The position numbers and the translations under genes were made by a program. Under the pieces are notes generated by a model. The model was not told the DNA's origin. It searched no databases and worked only from the letters and a program-made list of their open reading frames with translations. A stretch of 64,000 nt of DNA, from contig CM049307.1 of NCBI GenBank assembly GCA_026874595.1, positions 1,201,579-1,265,578 of the forward strand. Direction: 5' to 3'. This document shows positions 3,187 to 61,331 of the stretch, piece by piece (positions within the stretch are counted from its first letter, which is position 1; each line of letters starts with the position of its first letter). This DNA is from Sipunculus nudus. Taxonomy: Eukaryota > Annelida > Sipuncula > Golfingiida > Sipunculidae.

Positions 3187-3410
3187 GAGTATTTCAAAAA
3201 CAAGGAACTGAGAAGAGCATCATTGACCTAAGAGGAGTTGAGGAACTTCAAGTTGTGGATAAGTCTGATGGCTTGACATTGGGTGCCAACCTGACCTTGA
3301 CCCAGTTGATTCAGATTTTCAAGGACATGTCAGATGATAATTCCAGCTTCAGATACCTGAGAAACATGACTGATTACATGGTTTCTGTGGGAAATGTAGC
3401 TGTCAGAAAT
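3187..3410 (+). CDS. Exon of xanthine dehydrogenase/aldehyde oxidase-like molybdo-flavoenzyme (FAD-binding domain, first part)
   Basis: This is a 224-bp internal exon bounded by 'gatccag|ga' and 'cagaaat|gtaagt', a strong donor. The first two bases complete a codon begun upstream (phase 1), followed by 74 codons without a stop, ending in phase 0. The protein segment starts VFQKQGTEKSIIDLRGVEEL, continues with a hydrophobic strand followed by LTLGANLTLTQLIQIF, and ends VSVGNVAVRN. This matches the FAD-binding domain of molybdenum hydroxylases (Pfam FAD_binding_5): 'IDL..V.EL', then the 'lGA..tl..l' motif, then '..vRNvas..GN', which is completed by the next exon at 38871. The family oxidises purines, aldehydes or N-heterocycles with Mo, Fe-S and FAD; this domain passes electrons to NAD+ or O2. 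Whether the enzyme is a xanthine dehydrogenase or an aldehyde-oxidase-type paralogue cannot be decided from 110 residues. Confidence 0.85.
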
Positions 3411-11143: not shown

Positions 11144-11164
11144 TTATTTCCTGTGTTTGTACAG

Positions 11165-11233
11165 GCTGCTAGTTGGGCTGGTAACTTGATGCTGAAGCAC
11201 ACTGATCCTGGATTCCCCTCAGACTTGTTCACT
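11165..11233 (+). pseudogene. Exon-like first unit at the left edge of the array
   Basis: This unit keeps the exon-type start 'tttgtacag|gctgctagttgggctgg' rather than the common 'gtatgtag|aggctctaaatga'. Read in the frame of the real exon it gives AASWAGNLMLKH..FPSDLFT, then continues into intron sequence and stops. It is a duplicate of the 38871 exon start and is probably among the oldest units, since it lies at the array edge. Confidence 0.85.
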
Positions 11234-13843
11234 TTATTCTGTGTTTATTATTTTCTGTGTATGTAGAGGCTCTAAATGAGCAGGTAACTTGATGCTGAAG
11301 CACACTGATCCTGGATTCCCCTCAGACTTGTTCACTTTATTCTGTGTTTATTATTTTCTGTGTATGTAGAGGCTCTAAATGAGCAGGTAACTTGATGCTG
11401 AAGCACACTGATCCTGGAATCCCCTCAGACTTGTTCACTTTATTCTGTGTTTATTATTTTCTGTGTATGTAGAGGCTCTAGATGAGCAGGTAACTTGATG
11501 CTGAAGCACACTGATCCTGGATTCCCCTCAGACTTGTTCACTTTATTCTGTGTTTATTATTTTCTGTGTATGTAGAGGCTCTAAATGAGCAGGTAACTTG
11601 ATGCTGAAGCACACTGATCCTGGATTCCCCTCAGACTTGTTCACTTTATTCCGTGTTTATTATTTTCTGTGTATGTAGAGGCTGTAGATGAGCAGGTAAC
11701 TTGATGCTGAAGCACACTGATCCTAGATTCCCCTCAGACTTGTTCACTTTATTCTGTGTTTATTATTTTCTGTGTATATAGAGGCTCTAGATGAGCAGGT
11801 AACTTGATGCTGAAGCACACTGATCCTGGATTCCCCTCAGACTTGTTCACTTTATTCTGTGTTTATTATTTTCTGTGTATGTAGAGGTTCTAAATGAGCA
11901 GGTAACTTGATGCTGAAGCACACTGATCCTGGATTCCCCTCAGACTTGTTCACTTTATTCTGTGTTTATTATTTTCTGTGTATGTAGAGGCTCTAGATGA
12001 GCAGGTAACTTGATGCTGAAGCACACTGATCCAGGATTCCCCTCAGACTTGTTCACTTTATTCTGTGTTTATTATTTTCTGTGTATGTAGAGGTTCTAAA
12101 TGAGCAGGTAACTTGATGCTGAAGCACACTGATCCTGGATTCCCCTCAGACTTGTTCACTTTATTCTGTGTTTATTATTTTCTGTGTATGTAGAGGCTTT
12201 AGATGAGCAGGTAACTTGATGCTGAAGCACACTGATCCTGGACTCCCCTCAGTCTTGTTCACTTTATTCCATGTTTATTATTTTCTGTGTATGTAGAGGT
12301 TCTAAATGAGCAGGTAACTTGATGCTGAAGCACACTGATCCTGGATTCCCCTCAGACTTGTTCACTTTATTCTGTGTTTATTATTTTCTGTGTATGTAGA
12401 GGTTCTAAATGAGCAGGTAACTTGATGCTGAAGCACACTGATCCTGGATTCCCCTCAGACTTGTTCACTTTATTCTGTGTTTATTATTTTCTGTGTATGT
12501 AGAGGTTCTAAATGAGCAGGTAACTTGATGCTGAAGCACACTGATCCTGGATTCCCCTCAGACTTGTTCACTTTATTCTGTGTTTATTATTTTCTGTGTA
12601 TGTAGAGGCTCTAAATGAGCAGGTAACTTGATGCTGAAGCACACTGATCCTGGATTCCCCTCAGACTTGTTCACTTTATTCTGTGTTTATTATTTTCTGT
12701 GTATGTAGAGGCTCTAGATGAGCAGGTAACTTGATGCTGAAGCACACTGATCCTGGATTCCCCTCAGACTTGTTCACTTTATTCTGTGTTTATTATTTTC
12801 TGTGTATGTAGAGGCTCTAGATGAGCAGGTAACTTGATGCTGAAGCACACTGATCCTGGATTCCCCTCAGACTTGTTCACTTTATTCTGTGTTTATTATT
12901 TTCTGTGTATGTAGAGGCTCTAAATGAGCAGGTAACTTGATGCTGAAGCACACTGATCCTGGATTCCCCTCAGACTTGTTCACTTTATTCTGTGTTTATT
13001 ATTTTCTGTGTATGTAGAGGCTCTAGATCAGCAGGTAACTTGATGCTGAAGCACACTGATCCTGGATTCCCCTCAGACTTGTTCACTTTATTCTGTGTTT
13101 ATTATTTTCTGTGTATGTAGAGGTTCTAAATGAGCAGGTAACTTGATGCTGAAGCACACTGATCCTGGATTCCCCTCAGACTTGTTCACTTTATTCTGTG
13201 TTTATTATTTTCTGTGTATGTAGAGGTTCTAAATGAGCAGGTAACTTGATGCTGAAGCACACTGATCCTGGATTCCCCTCAGACTTGTTCACTTTATTCT
13301 GTGTTTATTATTTTCTGTGTATGTAGAGGCTCTAGATGAGCAGGTAACTTGATGCTGAAGCACACTGATCCTGGATTCCCCTCAGACTTGTTCACTTTAT
13401 TCCGTGTTTATTATTTTCTGTGTATGTAAAGGCTCTAGATGAGCAGGTAACTTGATGCTGAAGCACACTGATCCTGGATTCCCCTCAGACTTGTTAACTT
13501 TATTCTGTGTTTATTATTTTCTGTGTATGTAGAGGTTCTAAATGAGCAGGTAACTTGATGCTGAAGCACACTGATCCTGGATTCCCCTCAGACTTGTTCA
13601 CTTTATTCTGTGTTTATTATTTTCTGTGTATGTAGAGGTTCTAAATGAGCAGGTAACTTGATGCTGAAGCACACTGATCCTGGATTCCCCTCAGACTTGT
13701 TCACTTTATTCTGTGTTTATTATTTTCTGTGTATGTAGAGGTTCTAAATGAGCAGGTAACTTGATGCTGAAGCACACTGATCCTGGATTCCCCTCAGACT
13801 TGTTCACTTTATTCTGTGTCTATTATTTTCTGTGTTTGTACAG

Positions 13844-13912
13844 GTTGCTAGTTGGGCAGGTAACTTGATGCTGAAGCACACTGATCCTGGATTCCCTACA
13901 GACTTGTCCACT
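13844..13912 (+). pseudogene. Exon-like unit inside the array (a)
   Basis: It is preceded by 'ctgtgtctattattttctg' and 'tgtttgtacag', as at the true exon, and reads VASWAGNLMLKH..FPTDLST before a TAG 33 codons in. It carries private changes, 'ccctacagac' and 'tgtccact', shared with the units at 21053 and 35987. The acceptor is intact, so if used it would be an exon with a premature stop. Confidence 0.85.
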
Positions 13913-16900
13913 TTATTCTGTGTTTATTATTTTCTGTGTATGTAGAGGCTCTAAATGAGCAGGTAACTTGATGCTGAAGCACATTGATCCTGGATTCCCC
14001 TCAGACTTGTTCACTTTATTCTGTGTTTATTATTTTCTGTGTATGTATAGGTTCTAAATGAGCAGGTAACTTGATGCTGAAGCACACTGATCCTGGATTC
14101 CCCTCAGACTTGTTCACTTTATTCTGTGTTTATTATTTTCTGTGTATGTAGAGGCTCTATATGAGCAGGTAACTTGATGCTGAAGCACACTGATCCTGGA
14201 TTCCCCTCGGACTTGTTCACTTTATTCTGTGTTTATTATTTTCTGTGTATGTAGAGGCTCTAGATGAGCAGGTAACTTGATGCTGAAGCACACTGATCCT
14301 GGATTCCCCTCAGACTTGTTCACTTTATTCTGTGTTTATTATTTTCTGTGTATGTAGAGGCTCTAGATGAGCAGGTAACTTGATGCTGAAGCACACTGAT
14401 CCTGGATTCCCCTCAGACTTGTTCACTTTATTCTGTGTTTATTATTTTCTGTGTATGTAGTGGCTCTATATGAGCAGGTAACTTGATGCTGAAGCACACT
14501 GATCCTGGATTCCCCTCAGACTTGTTCACTTTATTCTGTGTTTATTATTTTCTGTGTATGTAGAGGTTCTAAATGAGCAGGTTACTTGATGCTGAAGCAC
14601 ACTGATCCTGGATTCCCCTCAGACTTGTTCACTTTATTCTGTGTTTATTATTTTCTGTGTATGTAGTGGCTCTATATGAGCAGGTAACTTGATGCTGAAG
14701 CACACTGATCCTGGATTCCCCTCAGACTTGTTCACTTTATTCTGTGTTTATTTTTTTCTGTGTATGTAGAGGCTCTAAATGAGCAGGTAACTTGATGCTG
14801 AAGCACACTGATCCTGGATTCCCCTCAGACTTGTTCACTTTATTCTGTGTTTATTATTTTCTGTGTATGTAGAGGCTCTAGATGAGCAGGTAACTTGATG
14901 CTGAAGCACACTGATCCTGGATTCCCCTCAGACTTGTTCACTTTTTCTGTGTTTATTATTTTCTGTGTATGTAGAGGTTCTAAATGAGCAGGTTACTTGA
15001 TGCTGAAGCACACTGATCCTGGATTCCCCTCAGACTTGTTCACTTTATTCCGTGTTTATTATTTTCTGTGTATGTAGAGGCTCTATATGAGCAGGTAACT
15101 TGATGCTGAAGCACACTGATCCTGGATTCCCCTCAGACTTGTTCACTTTATTCTGTGTTTATTATTTTCTGTGTATGTAGAGGCTCTAAATGAGCAGGTA
15201 ACTTGATGCTGAAGCACACTGATCCTGGATTCCCCTCAGACTTGTTCACTTTATTCCGTGCTTATTATTTTCTGTGTATGTAGAGGTTCTAAATGAGCAG
15301 GTAACTTGATGCTGAAGCACACTGATCCTGGATTCCCCTCAGACTTGTTCACTTTATTCTGTGTTTATTATTTTCTGTGTATGTAGAGGTTCTAGATGAG
15401 CAGGTAACTTGATGCTGAAGCACACTGATCCTGGATTCCCCTCAGACTTGTTCACTTTATTCTGTGTTTATTATTTTCTGTGTATGTAGAGGTTCTAAAT
15501 GAGCAGGTAACTTGATGCTGAAGCACACTGATCCTGGATTCCCCTCAGACTTGTTCACTTTATTCTGTGTTTATTATTTTCTGTGTATGTAGAGGTTCTA
15601 AATGAGCAGGTAACTTGATGCTGAAGCACACTGATCCTGGATTCCCCTCAGACTTGTTCACTTTATTCTGTGTTTATTATTTTCTGTGTATGTAGAGGTT
15701 CTAAATGAGCAGGTAACTTGATGCTGAAGCACACTGATCCTGGATTCCCCTCAGACTTGTTCACTTTATTCTGTGTTTATTATTTTCTGTGTATGTAGAG
15801 GCTCTAAATGAGCAGGTAACTTGATGCTGAAGCACACTGATCCTGGATTCCCCTCAGACTTGTTCACTTTATTCTGTGTTTATTATTTTCTGTGTATGTA
15901 GAGGGTTCTAAATGAGCAGGTAACTTGATGCTGAAGCACACTGATCCTGGATTCCCCTCAGACTTGTTCACTTTATTCTGTGTTTATTATTTTCTGTGTA
16001 TGTAGAGGTTCTAAATGAGCAGGTAACTTGATGCTGAAGCACACTGATCCTGGATTCCCCTCAGACTTGTTCACTTTATTCTGTGTTTATTATTTTCTGT
16101 GTATGTAGAGGTTCTAAATGAGCAGGTAACTTGATGCTGAAGCACACTGATCCTGGATTCCCCTCAGACTTGTTCACTTTTTCTGTGTTTATTATTTTCT
16201 GTGTATGTAGAGGTTCTAAATGAGCAGGTAACTTGATGCTGAAGCACACTGATCCTGGATTCCCCTCAGACTTGTTCACTTTATTCTGTGTTTATTATTT
16301 TCTGTGTATGTAGAGGTTCTAAATGAGCAGGTAACTTGATGCTGAAGCACACTGATCCTGGATTCCCCTCAGACTTGTTCACTTTATTCTGTGTTTATTA
16401 TTTTCTGTGTATGTAGAGGCTCTAGATGAGCAGGTAACTTGATGCTGAAGCACACTTATCCTGGATTCCCCTCAGACTTGTTCACTTTATTCTGTGTTTA
16501 TTATTTTCTGTGTATGTAGAGGCTCTAAATGAGCAGGTAACTTGATGCTGAAGCACACTGATCCTGGATTCCCCTCAGACTTGTTCACTTTATTCCGTGT
16601 TTATTATTTTCTGTGTATGTAGAGGCTGTAGATGAGCAGGTAACTTGATGCTGAAGCACACTGATCCTGGATTCCCCTCAGACTTGTTCACTTTATTCTG
16701 TGTTTATTATTTTCTGTGTATGTAGAGGTTCTAAATGAGCAGGTAACTTGATGCTGAAGCACACTGATCCTGGATTCCCCTCAGACTTGTTCACTTTATT
16801 CTGTGTTTATTATTTTCTGTGTATGTAGAGGTTCTAAATGAGCAGGTTACTTGATGCTGAAGCACACTGATCCTGGATTCCCCTCAGACTTGTTCACTTT

Positions 16901-19900
16901 ATTCTGTGTTTATTATTTTCTGTGTATGTAGTGGCTCTATATGAGCAGGTAACTTGATGCTGAAGCACACTGATCCTGGATTCCCCTCAGACTTGTTCAC
17001 TTTATTCTGTGTTTATTTTTTTCTGTGTATGTAGAGGCTCTAAATGAGCAGGTAACTTGATGCTGAAGCACACTGATCCTGGATTCCCCTCAGACTTGTT
17101 CACTTTATTCTGTGTTTATTATTTTCTGTGTATGTAGAGGCTCTAGATGAGCAGGTAACTTGATGCTGAAGCACACTGATCCTGGATTCCCCTCAGACTT
17201 GTTCATTTTTTCTGTGTTTATTATTTTCTGTGTATGTAGAGGTTCTAAATGAGCAGGTTACTTGATGCTGAAGCACACTGATCCTGGATTCCCCTCAGAC
17301 TTGTTCACTTTATTCCGTGTTTATTATTTTCTGTGTATGTAGAGGCTCTATATGAGCAGGTAACTTGATGCTGAAGCACACTGATCCTGGATTCCCCTCA
17401 GACTTGTTCACTTTATTCTGTGTTTATTATTTTCTGTGTATGTAGAGGCTCTAAATGAGCAGGTAACTTGATGCTGAAGCACACTGATCCTGGATTCCCC
17501 TCAGACTTGTTCACTTTATTCCGTGTTTATTATTTTCTGTGTATGTAGAGGTTCTAAATTAGCAGGTAACTTGATGCTGAAGCACACTGATCCTGGATTC
17601 CCCTCAGACTTGTTCACTTTATTCTGTGTTTATTATTTTCTGTGTATGTAGAGGTTCTAGATGAGCAGGTAACCTGATGCTGAAGCACACTGATCCTGGA
17701 TTCCCCTCAGACTTGTTCACTTTATTCTGTGTTTATTATTTTCTGTGTATGTAGAGGTTCTAAATGAGCAGGTAACTTGATGCTGAAGCACACTGATCCT
17801 GGATTCCCCTCAGACTTGTTCACTTTATTCTGTGTTTATTATTTTCTGTGTATGTAGAGGTTCTAAATGAGCAGGTAACTTGATGCTGAAGCACACTGAT
17901 CCTGGATTCCCCTCAGACTTGTTCACTTTATTCTGTGTTTATTATTTTCTGTGTATGTAGAGGTTCTAAATGAGCAGGTAACTTGATGCTGAAGCACACT
18001 GATCCTGGATTCCCCTCAGACTTGTTCACTTTATTCTGTGTTTATTATTTTCTGTGTATGTAGAGGCTCTAAATGAGCAGGTAACTTGATGCTGAAGCAC
18101 ACTGATCCTGGATTCCCCTCAGACTTGTTCACTTTATTCTGTGTTTATTATTTTCTGTGTATGTAGAGGGTTCTAAATGAGCAGGTAACTTGATGCTGAA
18201 GCACACTGATCCTGGATTCCCCTCAGACTTGTTCACTTTATTCTGTGTTTATTATTTTCTGTGTATGTAGAGGTTCTAAATGAGCAGGTAACTTGATGCT
18301 GAAGCACACTGATCCTGGATTCCCCTCAGACTTGTTCACTTTATTCTGTGTTTATTATTTTCTGTGTATGTAGAGGTTCTAAATGAGCAGGTAACTTGAT
18401 GCTGAAGCACACTGATCCTGGATTCCCCTCAGACTTGTTCACTTTTTCTGTGTTTATTATTTTCTGTGTATGTAGAGGTTCTAAATGAGCAGGTAACTTG
18501 ATGCTGAAGCACACTGATCCTGGATTCCCCTCAGACTTGTTCACTTTATTCTGTGTTTATTATTTTCTGTGTATGTAGAGGTTCTAAATGAGCAGGTAAC
18601 TTGATGCTGAAGCACACTGATCCTGGATTCCCCTCAGACTTGTTCACTTTATTCTGTGTTTATTATTTTCTGTGTATGTAGAGGCTCTAGATGAGCAGGT
18701 AACTTGATGCTGAAGCACACTGATCCTGGATTCCCCTCAGACTTGTTCACTTTATTCTGTGTTTATTATTTTCTGTGTATGTAGAGGCTCTAAATGAGCA
18801 GGTAACTTGATGCTGAAGCACACTGATCCTGGATTCCCCTCAGACTTGTTCACTTTATTCCGTGTTTATTATTTTCTGTGTATGTAGAGGCTGTAGATGA
18901 GCAGGTAACTTGATGCTGAAGCACACTGATCCTGGATTCCCCTCAGACTTGTTCACTTTATTCTGTGTTTATTATTTTCTGTGTATGTAGAGGCTCTAGA
19001 TGAGCAGGTAACTTGATGCTGTAGCACACTGATCCTGGATTCCCCTCAGACTTGTTAACTTTATTCTGTGTTTATTATTTTCTGTGTATGTAGAGGTTCT
19101 AAATGAGCAGGTAACTTGATGCTGAAGCACACTGATCCTGGATTCCCCTCAGACTTGTTCACTTTATTCTGTGTTTATTATTTTCTGTGTATGTAGAGGC
19201 TCTAGATGAGCAGGTAACTTGATGCTGAAGCACACTGATCCTGGATTCCCCTCAGACTTGTTCACTTTATTCTGTGTTTATTATTTTCTGTGTATGTAGA
19301 GGTTCTAAATGAGCAGGTAACTTGATGCTGAAGCACACTGATCCTGGATTCCCCTCAGACTTGTTCACTTTATTCTGTGTTTATTATTTTCTGTGTATGT
19401 AGAGGCTTTAGATGAGCAGGTAACTTGATGCTGAAGCACACTGATCCTGGATTCCCCTCAGACTTGTTCACTTTATTCCGTGTTTATTTTTTTCTGTGTA
19501 TGTAGAGGTTCTAAATGAGCAGGTAACTTGATGCTGAAGCACACTGATCCTGGATTCCCCTCAGACTTGTTCACTTTATTCTGTGTTTATTATTTTCTGT
19601 GTATGTAGAGGTTCTAAATGAGCAGGTAACTTGATGCTGAAGCACACTGATCCTGGATTCCCCTCAGACTTGTTCACTTTATTCTGTGTTTATTATTTTC
19701 TGTGTATGTAGAGGTTCTAAATGAGCAGGTAACTTGATGCTGAAGCACACTGATCCTGGATTCCCCTCAGACTTGTTCACTTTATTCTGTGTTTATTATT
19801 TTCTGTGTATGTAGAGGTTCTAAATGAGCAGGTAACTTGATGCTGAAGCACACTGATCCTGGATTCCCCTCAGACTTGTTCACTTTATTCTGTGTTTATT

Positions 19901-21052
19901 ATTTTCTGTGTATGTAGAGGCTCTAAATGAGCAGGTAACTTGATGCTGAAGCACACTGATCCTGGATTCCCCTCAGACTTGTTCACTTTATTCTGTGTTT
20001 ATTATTTTCTGTGTATGTAGAGGCTCTAGATCAGCAGGTAACTTGATGCTGAAGCACACTGATCCTGGATTCCCCTCAGACTTGTTCACTTTATTCTGTG
20101 TTAATTATTTTCTGTGTATGTAGAGGTTCTAAATGAGCAGGTAACTTGATGCTGAAGCACACTGATCCTGGATTCCCCTCAGACTTGTTCACTTTATTCT
20201 GTGTTTATTATTTTCTGTGTATGTAGAGGTTCTAAATGAGCAGGTAACTTGATGCTGAAGCACACTGATCCTGGATTCCCCTCAGACTTGTTCACTTTAT
20301 TCTGTGTTTATTATTTTCTGTGTATGTAGAGGCTCTAGATGAGCAGGTAACTTGATGCTGAAGCACACTGATCCTGGATTCCCCTCAGACTTGTTCACTT
20401 TATTCCGTGTTTATTATTTTCTGTGTATGTAAAGGCTCTAGATGAGCAGGTAACTTGATGCTGAAGCACACTGATCCTGGATTCCCCTCAGACTTGTTAA
20501 CTTTATTCTGTGTTTATTATTTTCTGTGTATGTAGAGGTTCTAAATGAGCAGGTAACTTGATGCTTAAGCACACTGATCCTGGATTCCCCTCAGACTTGT
20601 TCACTTTATTCTGTGTTTATTATTTTCTGTGTATGTAGAGGCTCTAGATGAGCAGGTAACTTGATGCTGAAGCACACTGATCCTGGATTCCCCTCAGACT
20701 TGTTCACTTTATTCTGTGTTTATTATTTTATGTGTATGTAGAGGTTCTAAATGAGCAGGTAACTTGATGCTGAAGCACACTGATCCTGGATTCCCCTCAG
20801 ACTTGTTCACTTTATTCTGTGTTTATTATTTTCTGTGTATGTAGAGGTTTTAAATGAGCAGGTAACTTGATGCTGAAGCACACTGATCCTGGATTCCCCT
20901 CAGACTTGTTCACTTTATTCTGTGTTTATTATTTTCTGTGTATGTAGAGGTTCTAAATGAGCAGGTAACTTGATGCTGAAGCACACTGATCCTGGATTCC
21001 CCTCAGACTTGTTCACTTTATTCTGTGTCTATTATTTTCTGTGTTTGTACAG

Positions 21053-21121
21053 GGTGCTAGTTGGGCAGGTAACTTGATGCTGAAGCACACTGATCCTGGA
21101 TTCCCTACAGACTTGTCCACT
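21053..21121 (+). pseudogene. Exon-like unit inside the array (b)
   Basis: It has the same features as the unit at 13844, including 'ccctacagac' and 'tgtccact', but the first exon codon is GGT instead of GTT ('tacagggtgctag'). It lies 7209 bp (70 units) downstream of unit (a). Confidence 0.85.
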
Positions 21122-24100
21122 TTATTCTGTGTTTATTATTTTCTGTGTATGTAGAGGCTCTAAATGAGCAGGTAACTTGATGCTGAAGCACATTGATCCT
21201 GGATTCCCCTCAGACTTGTTCACTTTATTCTGTGTTTATTATTTTCTGTGTATGTAGAGGTTCCAAATGAGCAGGTAACTTGATGCTGAAGCACACTGAT
21301 CCTGGATTCCCCTCAGACTTGTTCACTTTATTCTGTGTTTATTATTTTCTGTGTATGTAGAGGCTCTATATGAGCAGGTAACTTGATGCTGAAGCACACT
21401 GATCCTGGATTCCCCTCGGACTTGTTCACTTTATTCTGTGTTTATTATTTTCTGTGTATGTAGAGGCTCTAGATGAGCAGGTAACTTGATGCTGAAGCAC
21501 ACTGATCCTGGATTCCCCTCAGACTTGTTCACTTTATTCTGTGTTTATTATTTTCTGTGTATGTAGAGGCTCTAGATGAGCAGGTAACTTGATGCTGAAG
21601 CACACTGATCCTGGATTCCCCTCAGACTTGTTCACTTTATTCTGTGTTTATTATTTTCTGTGTATGTAGTGGCTCTATATGAGCAGGTAACTTGATGCTG
21701 AAGCACACTGATCCTGGATTCCCCTCAGACTTGTTCACTTTATTCTGTGTTTATTATTTTCTGTGTATGTAGAGGTTCTAAATGAGCAGGTTACTTGATG
21801 CTGAAGCACACTGATCCTGGATTCCCCTCAGACTTGTTCACTTTATTCTGTGTTTATTATTTTCTGTGTATGTAGTGGCTCTATATGAGCAGGTAACTTG
21901 ATGCTGAAGCACACTGATCCTGGATTCCCCTCAGACTTGTTCACTTTATTCTGTGTTTATTTTTTTCTGTGTATGTAGAGGCTCTAAATGAGCAGGTAAC
22001 TTGATGCTGAAGCACACTGATCCTGGATTCCCCTCAGACTTGTTCACTTTATTCTGTGTTTATTATTTTCTGTGTATGTAGAGGCTCTAGATGAGCAGGT
22101 AACTTGATGCTGAAGCACACTGATCCTGGATTCCCCTCAGACTTGTTCACTTTATTCTGTGTTTATTATTTTCTGTGTATGTAGAGGCTCTAAATGAGCA
22201 GGTAACTTGATGCTGAAGCACACTGATCCTGGATTCCCCTCAGACTTGTTCACTTTATTCCGTGCTTATTATTTTCTGTGTATGTAGAGGTTCTAAATGA
22301 GCAGGTAACTTGATGCTGAAGCACACTGATCCTGGATTCCCCTCAGACTTGTTCACTTTATTCTGTGTTTATTATTTTCTGTGTATGTAGAGGTTCTAGA
22401 TGAGCAGGTAACTTGATGCTGAAGCACACTGATCCTGGATTCCCCTCAGACTTGTTCACTTTATTCTGTGTTTATTATTTTCTGTGTATGTAGAGGTTCT
22501 AAATGAGCAGGTAACTTGATGCTGAAGCACACTGATCCTGGATTCCCCTCAGACTTGTTCACTTTATTCTGTGTTTATTATTTTCTGTGTATGTAGAGGT
22601 TCTAAATGAGCAGGTAACTTGATGCTGAAGCACACTGATCCTGGATTCCCCTCAGACTTGTTCACTTTATTCTGTGTTTATTATTTTCTGTGTATGTAGA
22701 GGTTCTAAATGAGCAGGTAACTTGATGCTGAAGCACACTGATCCTGGATTCCCCTCAGACTTGTTCACTTTATTCTGTGTTTATTATTTTCTGTGTATGT
22801 AGTGGCTCTATATGAGCAGGTAACTTGATGCTGAAGCACACTGATCCTGGATTCCCCTCAGACTTGTTCACTTTATTCTGTGTTTATTATTTTCTGTGTA
22901 TGTAGAGGTTCTAAATGAGCAGGTTACTTGATGCTGAAGCACACTGATCCTGGATTCCCCTCAGACTTGTTCACTTTATTCTGTGTTTATTATTTTCTGT
23001 GTATGTAGTGGCTCTATATGAGCAGGTAACTTGATGCTGAAGCACACTGATCCTGGATTCCCCTCAGACTTGTTCACTTTATTCTGTGTTTATTTTTTTC
23101 TGTGTATGTAGAGGCTCTAAATGAGCAGGTAACTTGATGCTGAAGCACACTGATCCTGGATTCCCCTCAGACTTGTTCACTTTATTCTGTGTTTATTATT
23201 TTCTGTGTATGTAGAGGCTCTAGATGAGCAGGTAACTTGATGCTGAAGCACACTGATCCTGGATTCCCCTCAGACTTGTTCATTTTTTCTGTGTTTATTA
23301 TTTTCTGTGTATGTAGAGGTTCTAAATGAGCAGGTTACTTGATGCTGAAGCACACTGATCCTGGATTCCCCTCAGACTTGTTCACTTTATTCCGTGTTTA
23401 TTATTTTCTGTGTATGTAGAGGCTCTATATGAGCAGGTAACTTGATGCTGAAGCACACTGATCCTGGATTCCCCTCAGACTTGTTCACTTTATTCTGTGT
23501 TTATTATTTTCTGTGTATGTAGAGGCTCTAAATGAGCAGGTAACTTGATGCTGAAGCACACTGATCCTGGATTCCCCTCAGACTTGTTCACTTTATTCCG
23601 TGTTTATTATTTTCTGTGTATGTAGAGGTTCTAAATTAGCAGGTAACTTGATGCTGAAGCACACTGATCCTGGATTCCCCTCAGACTTGTTCACTTTATT
23701 CTGTGTTTATTATTTTCTGTGTATGTAGAGGTTCTAGATGAGCAGGTAACCTGATGCTGAAGCACACTGATCCTGGATTCCCCTCAGACTTGTTCACTTT
23801 ATTCTGTGTTTATTATTTTCTGTGTATGTAGAGGTTCTAAATGAGCAGGTAACTTGATGCTGAAGCACACTGATCCTGGATTCCCCTCAGACTTGTTCAC
23901 TTTATTCTGTGTTTATTATTTTCTGTGTATGTAGAGGTTCTAAATGAGCAGGTAACTTGATGCTGAAGCACACTGATCCTGGATTCCCCTCAGACTTGTT
24001 CACTTTATTCTGTGTTTATTATTTTCTGTGTATGTAGAGGTTCTAAATGAGCAGGTAACTTGATGCTGAAGCACACTGATCCTGGATTCCCCTCAGACTT

Positions 24101-27100: not shown

Positions 27101-30100
27101 TGTGTTTATTATTTTCTCTGTATGTAGAGGTTCTAAATGAGCAGGTAACTTGATGCTGAAGCACACTGATCCTGGATTCCCCTCAGACTTGTTCACTTTA
27201 TTCTTTGTTTATTATTTTCTGTGTATGTAGAGGTTCTAAATGAGCAGGTAACTTGATGCTGAAGCACACTGATCCTGGATTCCCCTCAGACTTGTTCACT
27301 TTATTCTGTGTTTATTATTTTCTGTGTATGTAGAGGCTCTAAATGAGCAGGTAACTTGATGCTGAAGCACACTGATCCTGGATTCCCCTCAGACTTGTTC
27401 ACTTTATTCTGTGTTTATTATTTTCTGTGTATGTAGAGGCTCTAGATGAGCAGGTAACTTGATGCTGAAGCACACTGATCCTGGATTCCCCTCAGACTTG
27501 TTCACTTTATTCTGTGTTTATTATTTTCTGTGTATGTAGAGGCTCTAGATGAGCAGGTAACTTGATGCTGAAGCACACTGATCCTGGATTCCCCTCAGAC
27601 TTGTTCACTTTATTCTGTGTTTATTATTTTCTGTGTATGTAGAGGCTCTAAATGAGCAGGTAACTTGATGCTGAAGCACACTGATCCTGGATTCCCCTCA
27701 GACTTGTTCACTTTATTCTGTGTTTATTATTTTCTGTGTATGTAGAGGCTCTAGATGAGCAGGTAACTTGATGCTGAAGCACACTGATCCTGGATTCCCC
27801 TCAGACTTGTTCACTTTATTCTGTGTTAATTATTTTCTGTGTATGTAGAGGTTCTAAATGAGCAGGTAACTTGATGCTGAAGCACACTGATCCTGGATTC
27901 CCCTCAGACTTGTTCACTTTATTCTGTGTTTATTATTTTCTGTGTATGTAGAGGTTCTAAATGAGCAGGTAACTTGATGCTGAAGCACACTGATCCTGGA
28001 TTCCCCTCAGACTTGTTCACTTTATTCTGTGTTTATTATTTTCTGTGTATGTAGAGGCTCTAGATGAGCAGGTAACTTGATGCTGAAGCACACTGATCCT
28101 GGATTCCCCTCAGACTTGTTCACTTTATTCCGTGTTTATTATTTTCTGTGTATGTAAAGGCTCTAGATGAGCAGGTAACTTGATGCTGAAGCACACTGAT
28201 CCTGGATTCCCCTCAGACTTGTTAACTTTATTCTGTGTTTATTATTTTCTGTGTATGTAGAGGTTCTAAATGAGCAGGTAACTTGATGCTGAAGCACACT
28301 GATCCTGGATTCCCCTCAGACTTGTTCACTTTATTCTGTGTTTATTATTTTCTGTGTATGTAGAGGCTCTAGATGAGCAGGTAACTTGATGCTGAAGCAC
28401 ACTGATCCTGGATTCCCCTCAGACTTGTTCACTTTATTCTGTGTTTATTATTTTATGTGTATGTAGAGGTTCTAAATGAGCAGGTAACTTGATGCTGAAG
28501 CACACTGATCCTGGATTCCCCTCAGACTTGTTCACTTTATTCTGTGTTTATTATTTTCTGTGTATGTAGTGGCTCTATATGAGCAGGTAACTTGATGCTG
28601 AAGCACACTGATCCTGGATTCCCCTCAGACTTGTTCACTTTATTCTGTGTTTATTATTTTCTGTGTATGTAGAGGTTCTAAATGAGCAGGTTACTTGATG
28701 CTGAAGCACACTGATCCTGGATTCCCCTCAGACTTGTTCACTTTATTCTGTGTTTATTATTTTCTGTGTATGTAGTGGCTCTATATGAGCAGGTAACTTG
28801 ATGCTGAAGCACACTGATCCTGGATTCCCCTCAGACTTGTTCACTTTATTCTGTGTTTATTTTTTTCTGTGTATGTAGAGGCTCTAAATGAGCAGGTAAC
28901 TTGATGCTGAAGCACACTGATCCTGGATTCCCCTCAGACTTGTTCACTTTATTCTGTGTTTATTATTTTCTGTGTATGTAGAGGCTCTAGATGAGCAGGT
29001 AACTTGATGCTGAAGCACACTGATCCTGGATTCCCCTCAGACTTGTTCATTTTTTCTGTGTTTATTATTTTCTGTGTATGTAGAGGTTCTAAATGAGCAG
29101 GTTACTTGATGCTGAAGCACACTGATCCTGGATTCCCCTCAGACTTGTTCACTTTATTCCGTGTTTATTATTTTCTGTGTATGTAGAGGCTCTATATGAG
29201 CAGGTAACTTGATGCTGAAGCACACTGATCCTGGATTCCCCTCAGACTTGTTCACTTTATTCTGTGTTTATTATTTTCTGTGTATGTAGAGGCTCTAAAT
29301 GAGCAGGTAACTTGATGCTGAAGCACACTGATCCTGGATTCCCCTCAGACTTGTTCACTTTATTCCGTGTTTATTATTTTCTGTGTATGTAGAGGTTCTA
29401 AATTAGCAGGTAACTTGATGCTGAAGCACACTGATCCTGGATTCCCCTCAGACTTGTTCACTTTATTCTGTGTTTATTATTTTCTGTGTATGTAGAGGTT
29501 CTAGATGAGCAGGTAACCTGATGCTGAAGCACACTGATCCTGGATTCCCCTCAGACTTGTTCACTTTATTCTGTGTTTATTATTTTCTGTGTATGTAGAG
29601 GTTCTAAATGAGCAGGTAACTTGATGCTGAAGCACACTGATCCTGGATTCCCCTCAGACTTGTTCACTTTATTCTGTGTTTATTATTTTCTGTGTATGTA
29701 GAGGTTCTAAATGAGCAGGTAACTTGATGCTGAAGCACACTGATCCTGGATTCCCCTCAGACTTGTTCACTTTATTCTGTGTTTATTATTTTCTGTGTAT
29801 GTAGAGGTTCTAAATGAGCAGGTAACTTGATGCTGAAGCACACTGATCCTGGATTCCCCTCAGACTTGTTCACTTTATTCTGTGTTTATTATTTTCTGTG
29901 TATGTAGAGGCTCTAAATGAGCAGGTAACTTGATGCTGAAGCACACTGATCCTGGATTCCCCTCAGACTTGTTCACTTTATTCTGTGTTTATTATTTTCT
30001 GTGTATGTAGAGGGTTCTAAATGAGCAGGTAACTTGATGCTGAAGCACACTGATCCTGGATTCCCCTCAGACTTGTTCACTTTATTCTGTGTTTATTATT

Positions 30101-33100
30101 TTCTGTGTATGTAGAGGTTCTAAATGAGCAGGTAACTTGATGCTGAAGCACACTGATCCTGGATTCCCCTCAGACTTGTTCACTTTATTCTGTGTTTATT
30201 ATTTTCTGTGTATGTAGAGGTTCTAAATGAGCAGGTAACTTGATGCTGAAGCACACTGATCCTGGATTCCCCTCAGACTTGTTCACTTTTTCTGTGTTTA
30301 TTATTTTCTGTGTATGTAGAGGTTCTAAATGAGCAGGTAACTTGATGCTGAAGCACACTGATCCTGGATTCCCCTCAGACTTGTTCACTTTATTCTGTGT
30401 TTATTATTTTCTGTGTATGTAGAGGTTCTAAATGAGCAGGTAACTTGATGCTGAAGCACACTGATCCTGGATTCCCCTCAGACTTGTTCACTTTATTCTG
30501 TGTTTATTATTTTCTGTGTATGTAGAGGCTCTAGATGAGCAGGTAACTTGATGCTGAAGCACACTGATCCTGGATTCCCCTCAGACTTGTTCACTTTATT
30601 CTGTGTTTATTATTTTCTGTGTATGTAGAGGCTCTAAATGGGCAGGTAACTTGATGCTGAAGCACACTGATCCTGGATTCCCCTCAGACTTGTTCACTTT
30701 ATTCCGTGTTTATTATTTTCTGTGTATGTAGAGGCTGTAGATGAGCAGGTAACTTGATGCTGAAGCACACTGATCCTGGATTCCCCTCAGACTTGTTCAC
30801 TTTATTCTGTGTTTATTATTTTCTGTGTATGTAGAGGCTCTAGATGAGCAGGTAACTTGATGCTGTAGCACACTGATCCTGGATTCCCCTCAGACTTGTT
30901 AACTTTATTCTGTGTTTATTATTTTCTGTGTATGTAGAGGTTCTAAATGAGCAGGTAACTTGATGCTGAAGCACACTGATCCTGGATTCCCCTCAGACTT
31001 GTTCACTTTATTCTGTGTTTATTATTTTCTGTGTATGTAGAGGCTCTAGATGAGCAGGTACCTTGATGCTGAAGCACACTGATCCTGGATTCCCCTCAGA
31101 CTTGTTCACTTTATTCTGTGTTTATTATTTTCTGTGTATGTAGAGGTTCTAAATGAGCAGGTAACTTGATGCTGAAGCACACTGATCCTGGATTCCCCTC
31201 AGACTTGTTCACTTTATTCTGTGTTTATTATTTTCTGTGTATGTAGAGGCTTTAGATGAGCAGGTAACTTGATGCTGAAGCACACTGATCCTGGATTCCC
31301 CTCAGACTTGTTCACTTTATTCCGTGTTTATTTTTTTCTGTGTATGTAGAGGTTCTAAATGAGCAGGTAACTTGATGCTGAAGCACACTGATCCTGGATT
31401 CCCCTCAGACTTGTTCACTTTATTCTGTGTTTATTATTTTCTGTGTATGTAGAGGTTCTAAATGAGCAGGTAACTTGATGCTGAAGCACACTGATCCTGG
31501 ATTCCCCTCAGACTTGTTCACTTTATTCTGTGTTTATTATTTTCTGTGTATGTAGAGGTTCTAAATGAGCAGGTAACTTGATGCTGAAGCACACTGATCC
31601 TGGATTCCCCTCAGACTTGTTCACTTTATTCTGTGTTTATTATTTTCTGTGTATGTAGAGGTTCTAAATGAGCAGGTAACTTGATGCTGAAGCACACTGA
31701 TCCTGGATTCCCCTAAGACTTGTTCACTTTATTCTGTGTTTATTATTTTCTGTGTATGTAGAGGTTCTAAATGAGCAGGTAACTTGATGCTGAAGCACAC
31801 TGATCCTGGATTCCCCTCAGACTTGTTCACTTTATTCTGTGTTTATTATTTTCTGTGTATGTAGAGGCTCTAAATGAGCAGGTAACTTGATGCTGAAGCA
31901 CACTGATCCTGGATTCCCCTCAGACTTGTTCACTTTATTCTGTGTTTATTATTTTCTGTGTATGTAGAGGCTCTAGATGAGCAGGTAACTTGATGCTGAA
32001 GCACACTGATCCTGGATTCCCCTCAGACTTGTTCACTTTATTCTGTGTTTATTATTTTCTGTGTATGTAGAGGCTCTAGATGAGCAGGTAACTTGATGCT
32101 GAAGCACACTGATCCTTGATTCCCCTCAGACTTGTTCACTTTATTCTGTGTTTATTATTTTCTGTGTATGTAGAGGCTCTAAATGAGCAGGTAACTTGAT
32201 GCTGAAGCACACTGATCCTGGATTCCCCTCAGACTTGTTCACTTTATTCTGTGTTTATTATTTTCTGTGTATGTAGAGGCTCTAGATCAGCAGGTAACTT
32301 GATGCTGAAGCACACTGATCCTGGATTCCCCTCAGACTTGTTCACTTTATTCTGTGTTTATTATTTTCTGTGTATGTAGAGGTTCTAAATGAGCAGGTAA
32401 CTTGATGCTGAAGCACACTGATCCTGGATTCCCCTCAGACTTGTTCACTTTATTCTGTGTTTATTATTTTCTGTGTATGTAGAGGTTCTAAATGAGCAGG
32501 TAACTTGATGCTGAAGCACACTGATCCTGGATTCCCCTCAGACTTGTTCACTTTATTCTGTGTTTATTATTTTCTGTGTATGTAGAGGCTCTAGATGAGC
32601 AGGTAACTTGATGCTGAAGCACACTGATCCTGGATTCCCCTCAGACTTGTTCACTTTATTCCGTGTTTATTATTTTCTGTGTATGTAAAGGCTCTAGATG
32701 AGCAGGTAACTTGATGCTGAAGCACACTGATCCTGGATTCCCCTCAGACTTGTTAACTTTATTCTGTGTTTATTATTTTCTGTGTATGTAGAGGTTCTAA
32801 ATGAGCAGGTAACTTGATGCTGAAGCACACTGATCCTGGATTCCCCTCAGACTTGTTCACTTTATTCTGTGTTTATTATTTTCTCTGTATGTAGAGGTTC
32901 TAAATGAGCAGGTAACTTGATGCTGAAGCACACTGATCCTGGATTCCCCTCAGACTTGTTCACTTTATTCTTTGTTTATTATTTTCTGTGTATGTAGAGG
33001 TTCTAAATGAGCAGGTAACTTGATGTTGAAGCACACTGATCCTGGATTCCCCTCAGACTTGTTCACTTTATTCTGTGTTTATTATTTTCTGTGTATGTAG

Positions 33101-35986
33101 AGGCTCTAAATGAGCAGGTAACTTGATGCTGAAGCACACTGATCCTGGATTCCCCTCAGACTTGTTCACTTTATTCTGTGTTTATTATTTTCTGTGTATG
33201 TAGAGGCTCTAGATGAGCAGGTAACTTGATGCTGAAGCACACTGATCCTGGATTCCCCTCAGACTTGTTCACTTTATTCTGTGTTTATTATTTTCTGTGT
33301 ATGTAGAGGCTCTAGATGAGCAGGTAACTTGATGCTGAAGCACACTGATCCTGGATTCCCCTCAGACTTGTTCACTTTATTCTGTGTTTATTATTTTCTG
33401 TGTATGTAGAGGTTCTAAATGAGCAGGTAACTTGATGCTGAAGCACACTGATCCTGGATTCCCCTCAGACTTGTTCACTTTATTCTTTGTTTATTATTTT
33501 CTGTGTATGTAGAGGTTCTAAATGAGCAGGTAACTTGATGTTGAAGCACACTGATCCTGGATTCCCCTCAGACTTGTTCACTTTATTCTGTGTTTATTAT
33601 TTTCTGTGTATGTAGAGGCTCTAAATGAGCAGGTAACTTGATGCTGAAGCACACTGATCCTGGATTCCCCTCAGACTTGTTCACTTTATTCTGTGTTTAT
33701 TATTTTCTGTGTATGTAGAGGCTCTAGATGAGCAGGTAACTTGATGCTGAAGCACACTGATCCTGGATTCCCCTCAGACTTGTTCACTTTATTCTGTGTT
33801 TATTATTTTCTGTGTATGTAGAGGTTCTAAATGAGCAGGTAACTTGATGCTGAAGCACACTGATCCTGGATTCCCCTCAGACTTGTTCACTTTATTCTGT
33901 GTTTATTATTTTCTGTGTATGTAGAGGTTCTAAATGAGCAGGTAACTTGATGCTGAAGCACACTGATCCTGGATTCCCCTCAGACTTGTTCACTTTATTC
34001 TGTGTTTATTATTTTCTGTGTATGTAGAGGCTCTAGATGAGCAGGTAACTTGATGCTGAAGCACACTGATCCTGGATTCCCCTCAGACTTGTTCACTTTA
34101 TTCCGTGTTTATTATTTTCTGTGTATGTAAAGGCTCTAGATGAGCAGGTAACTTGATGCTGAAGCACACTGATCCTGGATTCCCCTCAGACTTGTTAACT
34201 TTATTCTGTGTTTATTATTTTCTGTGTATGTAGAGGTTCTAAATGAGCAGGTAACTTGATGCTGAAGCACACTGATCCTGGATTCCCCTCAGACTTGTTC
34301 ACTTTATTCTGTGTTTATTATTTTCTCTGTATGTAGAGGTTCTAAATGAGCAGGTAACTTGATGCTGAAGCACACTGATCCTGGATTCCCCTCAGACTTG
34401 TTCACTTTATTCTTTGTTTATTATTTTCTGTGTATGTAGAGGTTCTAAATGAGCAGGTAACTTGATGTTGAAGCACACTGATCCTGGATTCCCCTCAGAC
34501 TTGTTCACTTTATTCTGTGTTTATTATTTTCTGTGTATGTAGAGGCTCTAAATGAGCAGGTAACTTGATGCTGAAGCACACTGATCCTGGATTCCCCTCA
34601 GACTTGTTCACTTTATTCTGTGTTTATTATTTTCTGTGTATGTAGAGGCTCTAGATGAGCAGGTAACTTGATGCTGAAGCACACTGATCCTGGATTCCCC
34701 TCAGACTTGTTCACTTTATTCTGTGTTTATTATTTTCTGTGTATGTAGAGGCTCTAGATGAGCAGGTAACTTGATGCTGAAGCACACTGATCCTGGATTC
34801 CCCTCAGACTTGTTCACTTTATTCTGTGTTTATTATTTTCTGTGTATGTAGAGGCTCTAAATGAGCAGGTAACTTGATGCTGAAGCACACTGATCCTGGA
34901 TTCCCCTCAGACTTGTTCACTTTATTCTGTGTTTATTATTTTCTGTGTATGTAGAGGCTCTAGATGAGCAGGTAACTTGATGCTGAAGCACACTGATCCT
35001 GGATTCCCCTCAGACTTGTTCACTTTATTCTGTGTTAATTATTTTCTGTGTATGTAGAGGTTCTAAATGAGCAGGTAACTTGATGCTGAAGCACACTGAT
35101 CCTGGATTCCCCTCAGACTTGTTCACTTTATTCTGTGTTTATTATTTTCTGTGTATGTAGAGGTTCTAAATGAGCAGGTAACTTGATGCTGAAGCACACT
35201 GATCCTGGATTCCCCTCAGACTTGTTCACTTTATTCTGTGTTTATTATTTTCTGTGTATGTAGAGGCTCTAGATGAGCAGGTAACTTGATGCTGAAGCAC
35301 ACTGATCCTGGATTCCCCTCAGACTTGTTCACTTTATTCCGTGTTTATTATTTTCTGTGTATGTAAAGGCTCTAGATGAGCAGGTAACTTGATGCTGAAG
35401 CACACTGATCCTGGATTCCCCTCAGACTTGTTAACTTTATTCTGTGTTTATTATTTTCTGTGTATGTAGAGGTTCTAAATGAGCAGGTAACTTGATGCTG
35501 AAGCACACTGATCCTGGATTCCCCTCAGACTTGTTCACTTTATTCTGTGTTTATTATTTTCTGTGTATGTAGAGGCTCTAGATGAGCAGGTAACTTGATG
35601 CTGAAGCACACTGATCCTGGATTCCCCTCAGACTTGTTCACTTTATTCTGTGTTTATTATTTTATGTGTATGTAGAGGTTCTAAATGAGCAGGTAACTTG
35701 ATGCTGAAGCACACTGATCCTGGATTCCCCTCAGACTTGTTCACTTTATTCTGTGTTTATTATTTTATGTGTATGTAGAGGTTTTAAATGAGCAGGTAAC
35801 TTGATGCTGAAGCACACTGATCCTGGATTCCCCTCAGACTTGTTCACTTTATTCTGTGTTTATTATTTTCTGTGTATGTAGAGGTTCTAAATGAGCAGGT
35901 AACTTGATGCTGAAGCACACTGATCCTGGATTCCCCTCAGACTTGTTCACTTTATTCTGTGTCTATTATTTTCTGTGTTTGTACAG

Positions 35987-36055
35987 GGTGCTAGTTGGGC
36001 AGGTAACTTGATGCTGAAGCACACTGATCCTGGATTCCCTACAGACTTGTCCACT
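35987..36055 (+). pseudogene. Exon-like unit inside the array (c)
   Basis: It shares the GGT first codon with the unit at 21053, 14,934 bp (145 units) upstream, so (b) and (c) come from one block duplication. The acceptor 'ctgtgtttgtacag' is intact. Confidence 0.85.
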
Positions 36056-38870
36056 TTATTCTGTGTTTATTATTTTCTGTGTATGTAGAGGCTCTAAATG
36101 AGCAGGTAACTTGATGCTGAAGCACATTGATCCTGGATTCCCCTCAGACTTGTTCACTTTATTCTGTGTTTATTATTTTCTGTGTATGTAGAGGTTCCAA
36201 ATGAGCAGGTAACTTGATGCTGAAGCACACTGATCCTGGATTCCCCTCAGACTTGTTCACTTTATTCTGTGTTTATTATTTTCTGTGTATGTAGAGGCTC
36301 TATATGAGCAGGTAACTTGATGCTGAAGCACACTGATCCTGGATTCCCCTCGGACTTGTTCACTTTATTCTGTGTTTATTATTTTCTGTGTATGTAGAGG
36401 CTCTAGATGAGCAGGTAACTTGATGCTGAAGCACACTGATCCTGGATTCCCCTCAGACTTGTTCACTTTATTCTGTGTTTATTATTTTCTGTGTATGTAG
36501 AGGCTCTAGATGAGCAGGTAACTTGATGCTGAAGCACACTGATCCTGGATTCCCCTCAGACTTGTTCACTTTATTCTGTGTTTATTATTTTCTGTGTATG
36601 TAGTGGCTCTATATGAGCAGGTAACTTGATGCTGAAGCACACTGATCCTGGATTCCCCTCAGACTTGTTCACTTTATTCTGTGTTTATTATTTTCTGTGT
36701 ATGTAGAGGTTCTAAATGAGCAGGTTACTTGATGCTGAAGCACACTGATCCTGGATTCCCCTCAGACTTGTTCACTTTATTCTGTGTTTATTATTTTCTG
36801 TGTATGTAGTGGCTCTATATGAGCAGGTAACTTGATGCTGAAGCACACTGATCCTGGATTCCCCTCAGACTTGTTCACTTTATTCTGTGTTTATTTTTTT
36901 CTGTGTATGTAGAGGCTCTAAATGAGCAGGTAACTTGATGCTGAAGCACACTGATCCTGGATTCCCCTCAGACTTGTTCACTTTATTCTGTGTTTATTAT
37001 TTTCTGTGTATGTAGAGGCTCTAGATGAGCAGGTAACTTGATGCTGAAGCACACTGATCCTGGATTCCCCTCAGACTTGTTCACTTTATTCTGTGTTTAT
37101 TATTTTCTGTGTATGTAGAGGTTCTAAATGAGCAGGTAACTTGATGCTGAAGCACACTGATCCTGGATTCCCCTCAGACTTGTTCACTTTATTCTGTGTT
37201 TATTATTTTCTGTGTATGTAGAGGTTCTAAATGAGCAGGTAACTTGATGCTGAAGCACACTGATCCTGGATTCCCCTCAGACTTGTTCACTTTTTCTGTG
37301 TTTATTATTTTCTGTGTATGTAGAGGTTCTAAATGAGCAGGTAACTTGATGCTGAAGCACACTGATCCTGGATTCCCCTCAGACTTGTTCACTTTATTCT
37401 GTGTTTATTATTTTCTGTGTATGTAGAGGTTCTAAATGAGCAGGTAACTTGATGCTGAAGCACACTGATCCTGGATTCCCCTCAGACTTGTTCACTTTAT
37501 TCTGTGTTTATTATTTTCTGTGTATGTAGAGGCTCTAGATGAGCAGGTAACTTGATGCTGAAGCACACTTATCCTGGATTCCCCTCAGACTTGTTCACTT
37601 TATTCTGTGTTTATTATTTTCTGTGTATGTAGAGGCTCTAAATGAGCAGGTAACTTGATGCTGAAGCACACTGATCCTGGATTCCCCTCAGACTTGTTCA
37701 CTTTATTCCGTGTTTATTATTTTCTGTGTATGTAGAGGCTGTAGATGAGCAGGTAACTTGATGCTGAAGCACACTGATCCTGGATTCCCCTCAGACTTGT
37801 TCACTTTATTCTGTGTTTATTATTTTCTGTGTATGTAGAGGTTCTAAATGAGCAGGTAACTTGATGCTGAAGCACACTGATCCTGGATTCCCCTCAGACT
37901 TGTTCACTTTATTCTGTGTTTATTATTTTCTGTGTATGTAGAGGCTCTAGATGAGCAGGTAACTTGATGCTGAAGCACACTGATCCTGGATTCCCCTCAG
38001 ACTTGTTCACTTTATTCTGTGTTTATTATTTTCTGTGTATGTAGAGGCTCTAGATGAGCAGGTAACTTGATGCTGAAGCACACTGATCCTGGATTCCCCT
38101 CAGACTTGTTCACTTTATTCTGTGTTTATTATTTTCTGTGTATGTAGAGGTTCTAAATGAGCAGGTAACTTGATGCTGAAGCACACTGATCCTGGATTCC
38201 CCTCAGACTTGTTCACTTTATTCTGTGTTTATTATTTTCTGTGTATGTAGAGGTTCTAAATGAGCAGGTAACTTGATGCTGAAGCACACTGATCCTGGAT
38301 TCCCCTCAGACTTGTTCACTTTATTCTGTGTTTATTATTTTCTGTGTATGTAGAGGCTCTAGATGAGCAGGTAACTTGATGCTGAAGCACACTGATCCTG
38401 GATTCCCCTCATACTTGTTCACTTTATTCTGTGTTTATTATTTTCTGTGTATGTAGAGGTTCTAAATGAGCAGGTAACTTGATGCTGAAGCACACTGATC
38501 CTGGATTCCCCTCAGACTTGTTCACTTTATTCTGTGTTTATTATTTTCTGTGTATGTAGAGGTTCTAAATGAGCAGGTAACTTGATGCTGAAGCACACTG
38601 ATCCTGGATTCCCCTCAGACTTGTTCACTTTATTCTGTGTTTATTATTTTCTGTGTATGTAGAGGCTCTAGATGAGCAGGTAACTTGATGCTGAAGCACA
38701 CTGATCTTGGATTCCCCTCAGACTTGTTCACTTTATTCTGTGTTTATTATTTTCTGTGTATGTAGAGGCTCTAAATGAGCAGGTAACTTGATGCTGAAGC
38801 ACACTGATCCTGGATTCCCCTCAGACTTGTTCACTTTATTCTGTGTCTATTATTTTCTGTGTTTGTACAG

Positions 38871-38976
38871 GTTGCTAGTTGGGCAGGTAACTTGATGCTG
38901 AAGCACACTGATCCTGGATTCCCCTCAGACTTGTTCACTATATTTGAGGCAGCAGGAGCAGAAATATCCATTGGTG
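38871..38976 (+). CDS. Exon of xanthine dehydrogenase/aldehyde oxidase-like molybdo-flavoenzyme (FAD-binding domain, continued)
   Basis: This is a 106-bp exon after 'ctgtgtttgtacag' with donor 'ggtg|gtaagg' at 38977. It starts in phase 0 and ends one base into a codon. It encodes VASWAGNLMLKH, then TDPGFPSDLFTIFEAAGAEI and SIG. With the preceding exon's ..VRN this builds 'VRNVASWAGNL', the conserved FAD-contacting 'RNvaS.gGN' stretch of xanthine dehydrogenases and aldehyde oxidases. The 'KH..FPSDLF..l.a.GA' pattern that follows fits AO/XDH-like animal proteins. This is the only copy in the window that continues past 'ttgttcact' into 'atatttgaggcagcagg' with an open frame and a donor, which distinguishes it from the 269 array units. 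'gcag|gtaact' inside the exon resembles a 5' splice site, so internal mis-splicing is conceivable. Confidence 0.87.
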
Positions 38977-42350: not shown

Positions 42351-42431
42351 CTCTTTCTCTCTCTCTCTGGCAGTCTAGGTCTCTCTCTCTCTTTCTCTCC
42401 TCTGCTTTTTCTCTTTCTTTCTCCATCTTTC

Positions 42432-42508
<77 letters not shown>
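42351..42508. repeat. CT microsatellite region
   Basis: An impure CTTT/CTCT stretch leads to a pure (CT)n run from about 42443 to 42507, inside family A copy 2. The long Ser/Leu and Arg/Glu frames here are by-products of the dinucleotide repeat. Confidence 0.95.

Positions 42509-42510
<2 letters not shown>

Positions 42511-61299: not shown

Positions 61300-61331
<32 letters not shown>

Follow-up and report, generated by a model that had tools for sequence, protein, structure and literature searches.

A 27.7-kb array before an exon of an AOX/XDH-family gene of Sipunculus nudus, probably an expanded duplication of the exon's own splice acceptor

INTRODUCTION

Where does an intronic satellite come from if its unit reads like the beginning of the exon that follows it? 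The question is raised by a 64,000-nt stretch of DNA from Sipunculus nudus (assembly GCA_026874595.1, contig CM049307.1, positions 1,201,579 to 1,265,578 of the forward strand), called the window below. In it a 103-bp unit is repeated in tandem over 27.7 kb of an intron, directly before an exon (exon C) of a gene of the aldehyde-oxidase/xanthine-dehydrogenase (AOX/XDH) family. A preliminary description, made from the letters of the window, held this array (array C) to be unlike known minisatellites, which is not supported, as the same anatomy has already been described in lancelets under the name of 'mirages' (PMC3087553, PMC3902484).

Mirages are tandem duplications of the 3' end of an intron and the 5' end of an exon, found in lancelet globin and Adh genes (PMC3087553), and repeats over splice sites are known from lancelet troponin C and PGBD5 (PMC3902484). 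The mirage of a lancelet globin gene has 3 and 6 units in two haplotypes, and the edge units of a mirage differ from its homogenised interior (PMC3087553). Array C is very probably such a mirage, i.e., a tandem array that arose from a duplication across the 3' splice site of its host exon and was later expanded. New in S. nudus are the size of the array, which at 27.7 kb takes up 78% of the intron, the fact that such arrays recur, and an anatomy that includes relic units.

ARRAY C AND ITS EXON

Tandem Repeats Finder (TRF) gave array C a period of 103 with 269.9 copies, 97% matches and a score of 52,497; wrap-around alignment gave 27,801 bp with 98.4% identity to the array's own consensus. The array consists of 269 full units, falling into 51 unit types, and one truncated first unit; the copy number of about 270 is that of a single assembly, as assembled. 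Each unit holds about 34 nt of intron end and 68–69 nt of exon start. In the alignment the consensus and exon C are identical at 57 of 57 bp, from GCAGGTAAC to TTCACT, and the exon portion of the consensus comes to 68 nt, as it lacks one G that exon C has. At the junction between units TTCACT is joined to TTATTCTG. The units continue unbroken up to exon C, and the end of the TRF array falls inside it. As in a mirage, an intron end and the adjoining exon start thus stand in tandem beside the authentic exon. The origin of the unit from the gene's own intron/exon boundary, and the presence of about 269 head-to-tail units directly before the exon, had both been claimed in the preliminary description and are borne out, the latter as assembled.

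Upstream of the exon the array (window 11144-38870) makes up 27,727 of the 35,460 bases of the intron between exons B and C. The homologous intron of a paralogue has 572 bp (by reading), so that the intron is 62 times longer here. This suggests a way in which introns become very long, the lengthening being due mostly to one array.

Array C is a single locus in the genome. Pattern searches used 35- and 33-base patterns with up to 3 mismatches; genome totals were counted, and individual places were given for the first matches only. In the 1.43-Gb assembly the internal motif (≤3 mismatches) is matched 261 times on the forward strand and 0 times on the reverse strand, and the window alone holds 261 matches; all units of array C are therefore in one orientation, as had been stated before. 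The motif for the intact (ancestral) acceptor occurs at 5 places in the genome, all five within array C. Copies at many loci, which would mark a genome-wide satellite, were not found in this search.

UNIT VARIATION AND HISTORY OF THE ARRAY

Array C is a satellite traceable to the splice site of its host gene, and ancestral-like units persist in its interior as well as at its two ends. TGTTTGTACAGGNTGCTAGTTGGGCNGG is matched by the first unit, by the true exon and by the interior units at 13809, 21018 and 35952, and the consensus of the others is TGTGTATGTAGAGGCTCTAAATGAGCAGG. These five units, two at the ends and three interior relics, have retained the acceptor TGTACAG, and their exon part begins much as the true exon does. 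Over the 270 units the acceptor trinucleotide is GAG in 246, GTG in 11, AAG in 7, CAG in 5 and TAG in 1. Both the first and the last unit depart from the consensus at sites 28, 33, 42, 43 and 46 and by a G inserted after 38. Five of these differences (sites 28 and 33, the missing G, 43 and 46) are nearly fixed, the ancestral state being found in 4–5 of the 269 full units, and they fall within 19 of the 103 positions (P=0.004 if placement were uniform, calculated post hoc).

Among 265 interior units, divergence from the consensus per site is lowest in the last 57 bp (0.0035), higher in the intron part (0.0091) and highest in the 12-bp stretch that separates the two (0.079), where sites 37 and 42 account for most of it. 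Changes in the last 57 bp number 15, 27 and 11 at codon positions 1, 2 and 3, respectively, which does not suggest that the copies are under coding constraint.

Runs with the same order of units recur, the longest having 24 units (offset 59) and others 20 and 17 (offset 56), 19 (offset 115) and 12 (offset 70). The three interior relics are located in copies of one block, and one of them differs from the other two. A homogenised interior with excluded edge units, as in the lancelet mirages, is also seen here, with the three relics and the variable site 42 as exceptions. These features fit unequal exchange and block duplication starting from an array with intact acceptors, the intact form presumably being the older one. 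The earlier proposal of a duplication across the acceptor is supported, and so is the subsequent expansion by unequal exchange, to which the recurring unit order points.

HOST GENE

The exons were located by sequence similarity and not by transcripts. Joined exons B and C match PF00941 (FAD-binding domain in molybdopterin dehydrogenases; E=2e-14). Tblastn with the exons of a paralogue (C2:15.58 Mb) matched exon A upstream of the window, exons B and C, and exon D downstream of the window; by reading, the open reading frame runs on from A through B to C. Domain searches gave three more exons, which share one strand, two with Fer2_2 (C2:1,169,205 and 1,177,664) and one with Ald_Xan_dh_C (1,345,297). 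If these belong together, the host gene would span at least 176 kb. The features within the window are collected in Table 1.

Table 1. Exons, arrays and array C units in the window (window positions; slashes mark splice borders).
Feature	Position	Strand	Evidence or remarks
Exon B, FAD-binding domain; donor GTAAGT at 3411	3187..3410	+	tblastn with paralogue exon, 6e-16; open frame
Exon C (VASWAGNLMLKHTDPGFPSDLFTIFEAAGAEISIG); donor GTAAGG at 38977	38871..38976	+	paralogue exon, 53% identity, E=6e-11
Exon B array, 105 bp x 14.1; its final base supplies the A of the acceptor AG	1706..3185	+	TRF; AG in 0/14 units
Array C, 103 bp x 269.9	11144..38944	+	TRF bounds
First unit of array C, truncated; acceptor TGTACAG/G, ancestral-like exon start	11144..11233	+	
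Interior relic unit; acceptor TGTACAG/G and exon start	13809..13912	+	
Interior relic unit; acceptor TGTACAG/G and exon start	21018..21121	+	copy of the block of 13809
Interior relic unit; acceptor TGTACAG/G and exon start	35952..36055	+	copy of the block of 13809
Last unit: intron end, true acceptor (AG at 38869-38870), first 69 nt of exon C	38836..38939	+	

BOUNDARY ARRAYS AT OTHER EXONS

Arrays at exon boundaries were found at five of the seven tested exons of the host gene, with a different unit at each. Acceptor-spanning arrays are present at a Fer2_2 exon (71 bp x 10, the acceptor being CAA in 9 of 10 units), at exon A (54 bp x 72 within the retrieved sequence, with AG in 43/72) and at exon D (34 bp x 36, AG kept in 35/36), and a further array adjoins exon B. 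The host-gene exons at loci L156 and L157 have no boundary array. These four further arrays, the arrays in other genes described below, and the loss of acceptors inside array C had been missed in the preliminary description.

For comparison, 71 kinesin and myosin exons (57 + 14) were tested out of 126 kinesin and 75 myosin family matches; they come from two gene families and are mostly those families' strongest matches. Two have an acceptor-spanning array (L040, L063), one has an array that ends ~20 nt upstream of the acceptor (L051), and one has an array on the donor side (L173). By Fisher's test the host gene differs from this sample (5/7 vs 3/71, p=5e-5), also when exon C is left out (4/6 vs 3/71, p=4e-4) and when spanning arrays only are counted without exon C (3/6 vs 2/71, p=0.003).

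Units and copy numbers are 61 bp x 13 in a kinesin exon array and 82 bp x 6 and 31 bp x 10 in myosin exon arrays. The myosin array at L074 was reached by following the array to an exon outside the family table and is excluded from the rates. The donor-side array at a myosin exon (L173, C9:48.06 Mb) has about 8 units of ~30 bp with CAG/GTAAAA(T). The array at L051 is degenerate and does not include the acceptor. Short repeats of 2.1–2.6 copies found by TRF near exons in L043, L052 and L053 were not counted. None of the 14 further exons, to which TRF only was applied, has an acceptor array; short or more distant repeats are found in L163, L168 and L169, and an array in L164 lies ~30 bp beyond the exon core.

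A copy scan of 63 exons (57 kinesin/myosin and 6 AOX-paralogue exons) gave 4 acceptor-side and 0 donor-side matches, and its reverse-complement control 2 and 0. One of the four acceptor-side matches (L006), also a match in the control, is an AT repeat; the remaining three are L040, L063 and L051. No acceptor-only bias is claimed. The six AOX-paralogue exons, which are homologous to exon B, have no boundary array save this AT repeat.

Boundary repeats also occur among AOX paralogues. One paralogue has a donor-side repeat of 123 bp x 2.2. Three paralogues (L158, C8:17.25 Mb; L159, C3:66.93 Mb; L160, C8:17.315 Mb) share an 89-bp boundary array at a Fer2_2 exon, the copy numbers among them being 20.4, 5.4 and 4.6; one of these arrays has a higher-order period of 356 bp. 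The acceptor count of 8/20 in the C8 array is rough owing to alignment gaps at the acceptor. The 89-bp arrays give no rate because they were noticed through partial exon copies in the table. The unit common to C3 and C8 genes suggests that boundary arrays may outlast gene duplication.

A sample of 19 PF00005 loci, taken for a base rate, was left out of all counts, as it lies on contigs C61-C138 and looks bacterial. Several contigs in this range hold bacterial-looking genes, among them 363-aa ABC transporter frames that score the same or almost the same on nine contigs; a permease frame beside one of the loci has its best prokaryote matches in Osedax symbionts (79%) and is closest to marine gammaproteobacteria.

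ORIGIN OF ARRAY C AND ALTERNATIVE EXPLANATIONS

A duplication spanning the acceptor, which can be nearly harmless, followed by growth through recombination, is well supported as the origin of array C. The first tandem duplication would have copied the end of the intron together with the start of exon C. It could be tolerated because the 3'-most copy still precedes a complete exon with its donor, so that a normal mRNA remains possible. The array would then have grown by unequal exchange and by duplication of multi-kilobase blocks, the expansion involving mostly units in which the acceptor had changed from CAG/G to GAG/G and which differ at other sites within the exon's first 12 nt. Decoy acceptors may be costly, so that units with a weakened acceptor could expand further, an idea that can be tested. 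Array C itself would have no function of its own, and weakened decoys would have aided its expansion.

Several points weigh against this account or narrow it. It presumes that the last acceptor alone is used in splicing, and the copy number to be explained depends on the assembly. The clustering of the five fixed differences was tested post hoc, and a sixth difference, site 42, is still variable, the ancestral G being present in 85 of 269 units. The changed acceptor retains an AG that lies two bases before the former one (TGTAG/AG), and the acceptors are therefore changed, perhaps weakened, and not certainly dead. The unit of the exon B array is, by reading, intron sequence without any exon, and abuts the acceptor. 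The genome search for MoCoBD_1 (31 matches) gave no exon in the host-gene stretch, so that the gene as traced here may be incomplete. Among ten acceptor-spanning arrays, copy number is not significantly related to the fraction of intact YAG (Spearman -0.55, p=0.10); one array of 36 units keeps AG in 35, and one of 10 units has lost it in 9.

A wider interpretation is that tandem duplications spanning splice sites are frequent and ongoing in this genome, and that a strong copied acceptor puts a brake on how far an array can grow. As long as its acceptors work, an array would compete with the true site and stay small, and a unit with a crippled acceptor would be free to spread, turning the array into a satellite. 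Array C, the largest of the ten, does have the lowest fraction of CAG/TAG (6/270), and if the brake exists, its 27.7 kb with 5 ancestral-like units among ~270 would record the switch. The trend over the ten arrays is not significant, and this wider interpretation is unlikely.

It is very unlikely that array C is functional, regulating splicing or expression as a long intron or through decoy or poison exons. The enrichment of boundary arrays in the host gene, with or without exon C, would agree with such a role, as would the 89-bp array common to the C3 and C8 paralogues, which may have persisted, and fly spermatocytes do need a special expression programme for satellite-filled introns (PMC6508621). 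Against this, unit sequence, length and acceptor status vary from array to array, with no common motif on reading save the splice site. The units of array C shift the frame, 103 not being a multiple of 3, and of the 150 matches to the exon peptide that were scored, only 6 are free of stops. In lancelets mirages seem not to disturb regular splicing (PMC3087553, PMC3902484).

Inflation of a short array by the assembler is very unlikely. Long tandem arrays are difficult to assemble, and the recurrence of blocks with identical unit order could be taken as a sign of this; there are, however, 51 unit types, with singletons interrupting blocks that match in all else, and the three relics are not all alike, one differing from the other two. 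Similar arrays also stand at other exons, and several of these are 87–90% identical to their consensus and therefore probably old.

An abundant satellite family inserted beside exon C and resembling it by chance, for which high copy number only speaks, is contradicted, at the sensitivity of the pattern searches (35 and 33 bases, ≤3 mismatches), by the 57/57 identical bases, the equal counts in genome and window, and the restriction of the ancestral motif to array C.

COMPARISON WITH KNOWN SYSTEMS

With the lancelet mirages (Adh3, BflGb6/BflGb9, troponin C and PGBD5) the arrays described here share the tandem repetition of intron end and exon start, or of exon end and donor, minisatellite-sized units, a homogenised interior with the edges excluded, and many repeats that keep their splice signals (PMC3087553, PMC3902484). 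Array C differs in having ~270 units against 3 and 6, and in the loss of the canonical acceptor in most of them. Its host gene differs in that five of seven tested exons are affected, each with a different unit, and it belongs to a different animal group; boundary arrays are thus probably to be extended beyond lancelets. The genome does not look like that of a lancelet: it has 1.43 Gb, lancelet genomes being near 0.5 Gb, and a 427-aa frame of FMRFamide type, a kind of precursor that marks molluscs and their kin. Myosin matches agree with this weakly, the first 8 of the 60 matches listed in one search being squid and scallop myosins, and in another search the first alone, with human myosins close behind.

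Minisatellites at exon-intron boundaries are also known from human segmental duplications as variable internal tandem repeats; these have on average four units of 30 bp, 160 bp in total, and have been discussed as a source of new introns (PMC2812944). The gigantic introns of Drosophila kl-3 and kl-5 resemble the intron before exon C in consisting mostly of satellite DNA within protein genes, but their satellites are simple and reach megabases, and an origin from a host exon is not described in the abstract of that paper (PMC6508621). The literature search, which left most subscription papers outside its scope, yielded no paper recognisable by title and abstract as treating such arrays in molluscs. 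Human CBS has a polymorphic 31-bp repeat across the boundary of exon 13 and intron 13, on which the search gave no paper; it differs in lying on the donor side and in having 16–21 copies. In another candidate paper the passages on introns report simple repeats only (PMC3862624).

With array C it can be tested how the spliceosome deals with decoy acceptors in numbers from tens to hundreds, and whether arrays are kept from growing by selection on the decoys. In genome annotation, boundary arrays could produce false exons.

NEIGHBOURING FEATURES

The intron after exon C contains a duplicated segment of ~4 kb at window 39920-43882 and 58880-62797 (94–95% identical), with related pieces at 3655-4350 and 48330-49068. 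The same intron has a 145-bp x 22.7 array at 49291-52578, which adjoins none of the exons found. A 180-bp tandem unit with an internal 19-bp repeat is present at window 46901-47752 and at L011 6313-7399, ~50 kb apart, and may represent a dispersed element with a tandem array inside it.

Two observations concern other parts of the genome. At C2:44,848,559-44,854,198 parts of the myosin head that overlap in the profile (~90-204) are matched several times within 6 kb, and the matches look like alternative exons. The 1.43-Gb genome also contains a 427-aa open frame with 23 copies of F(M/L)RFG(K/R).

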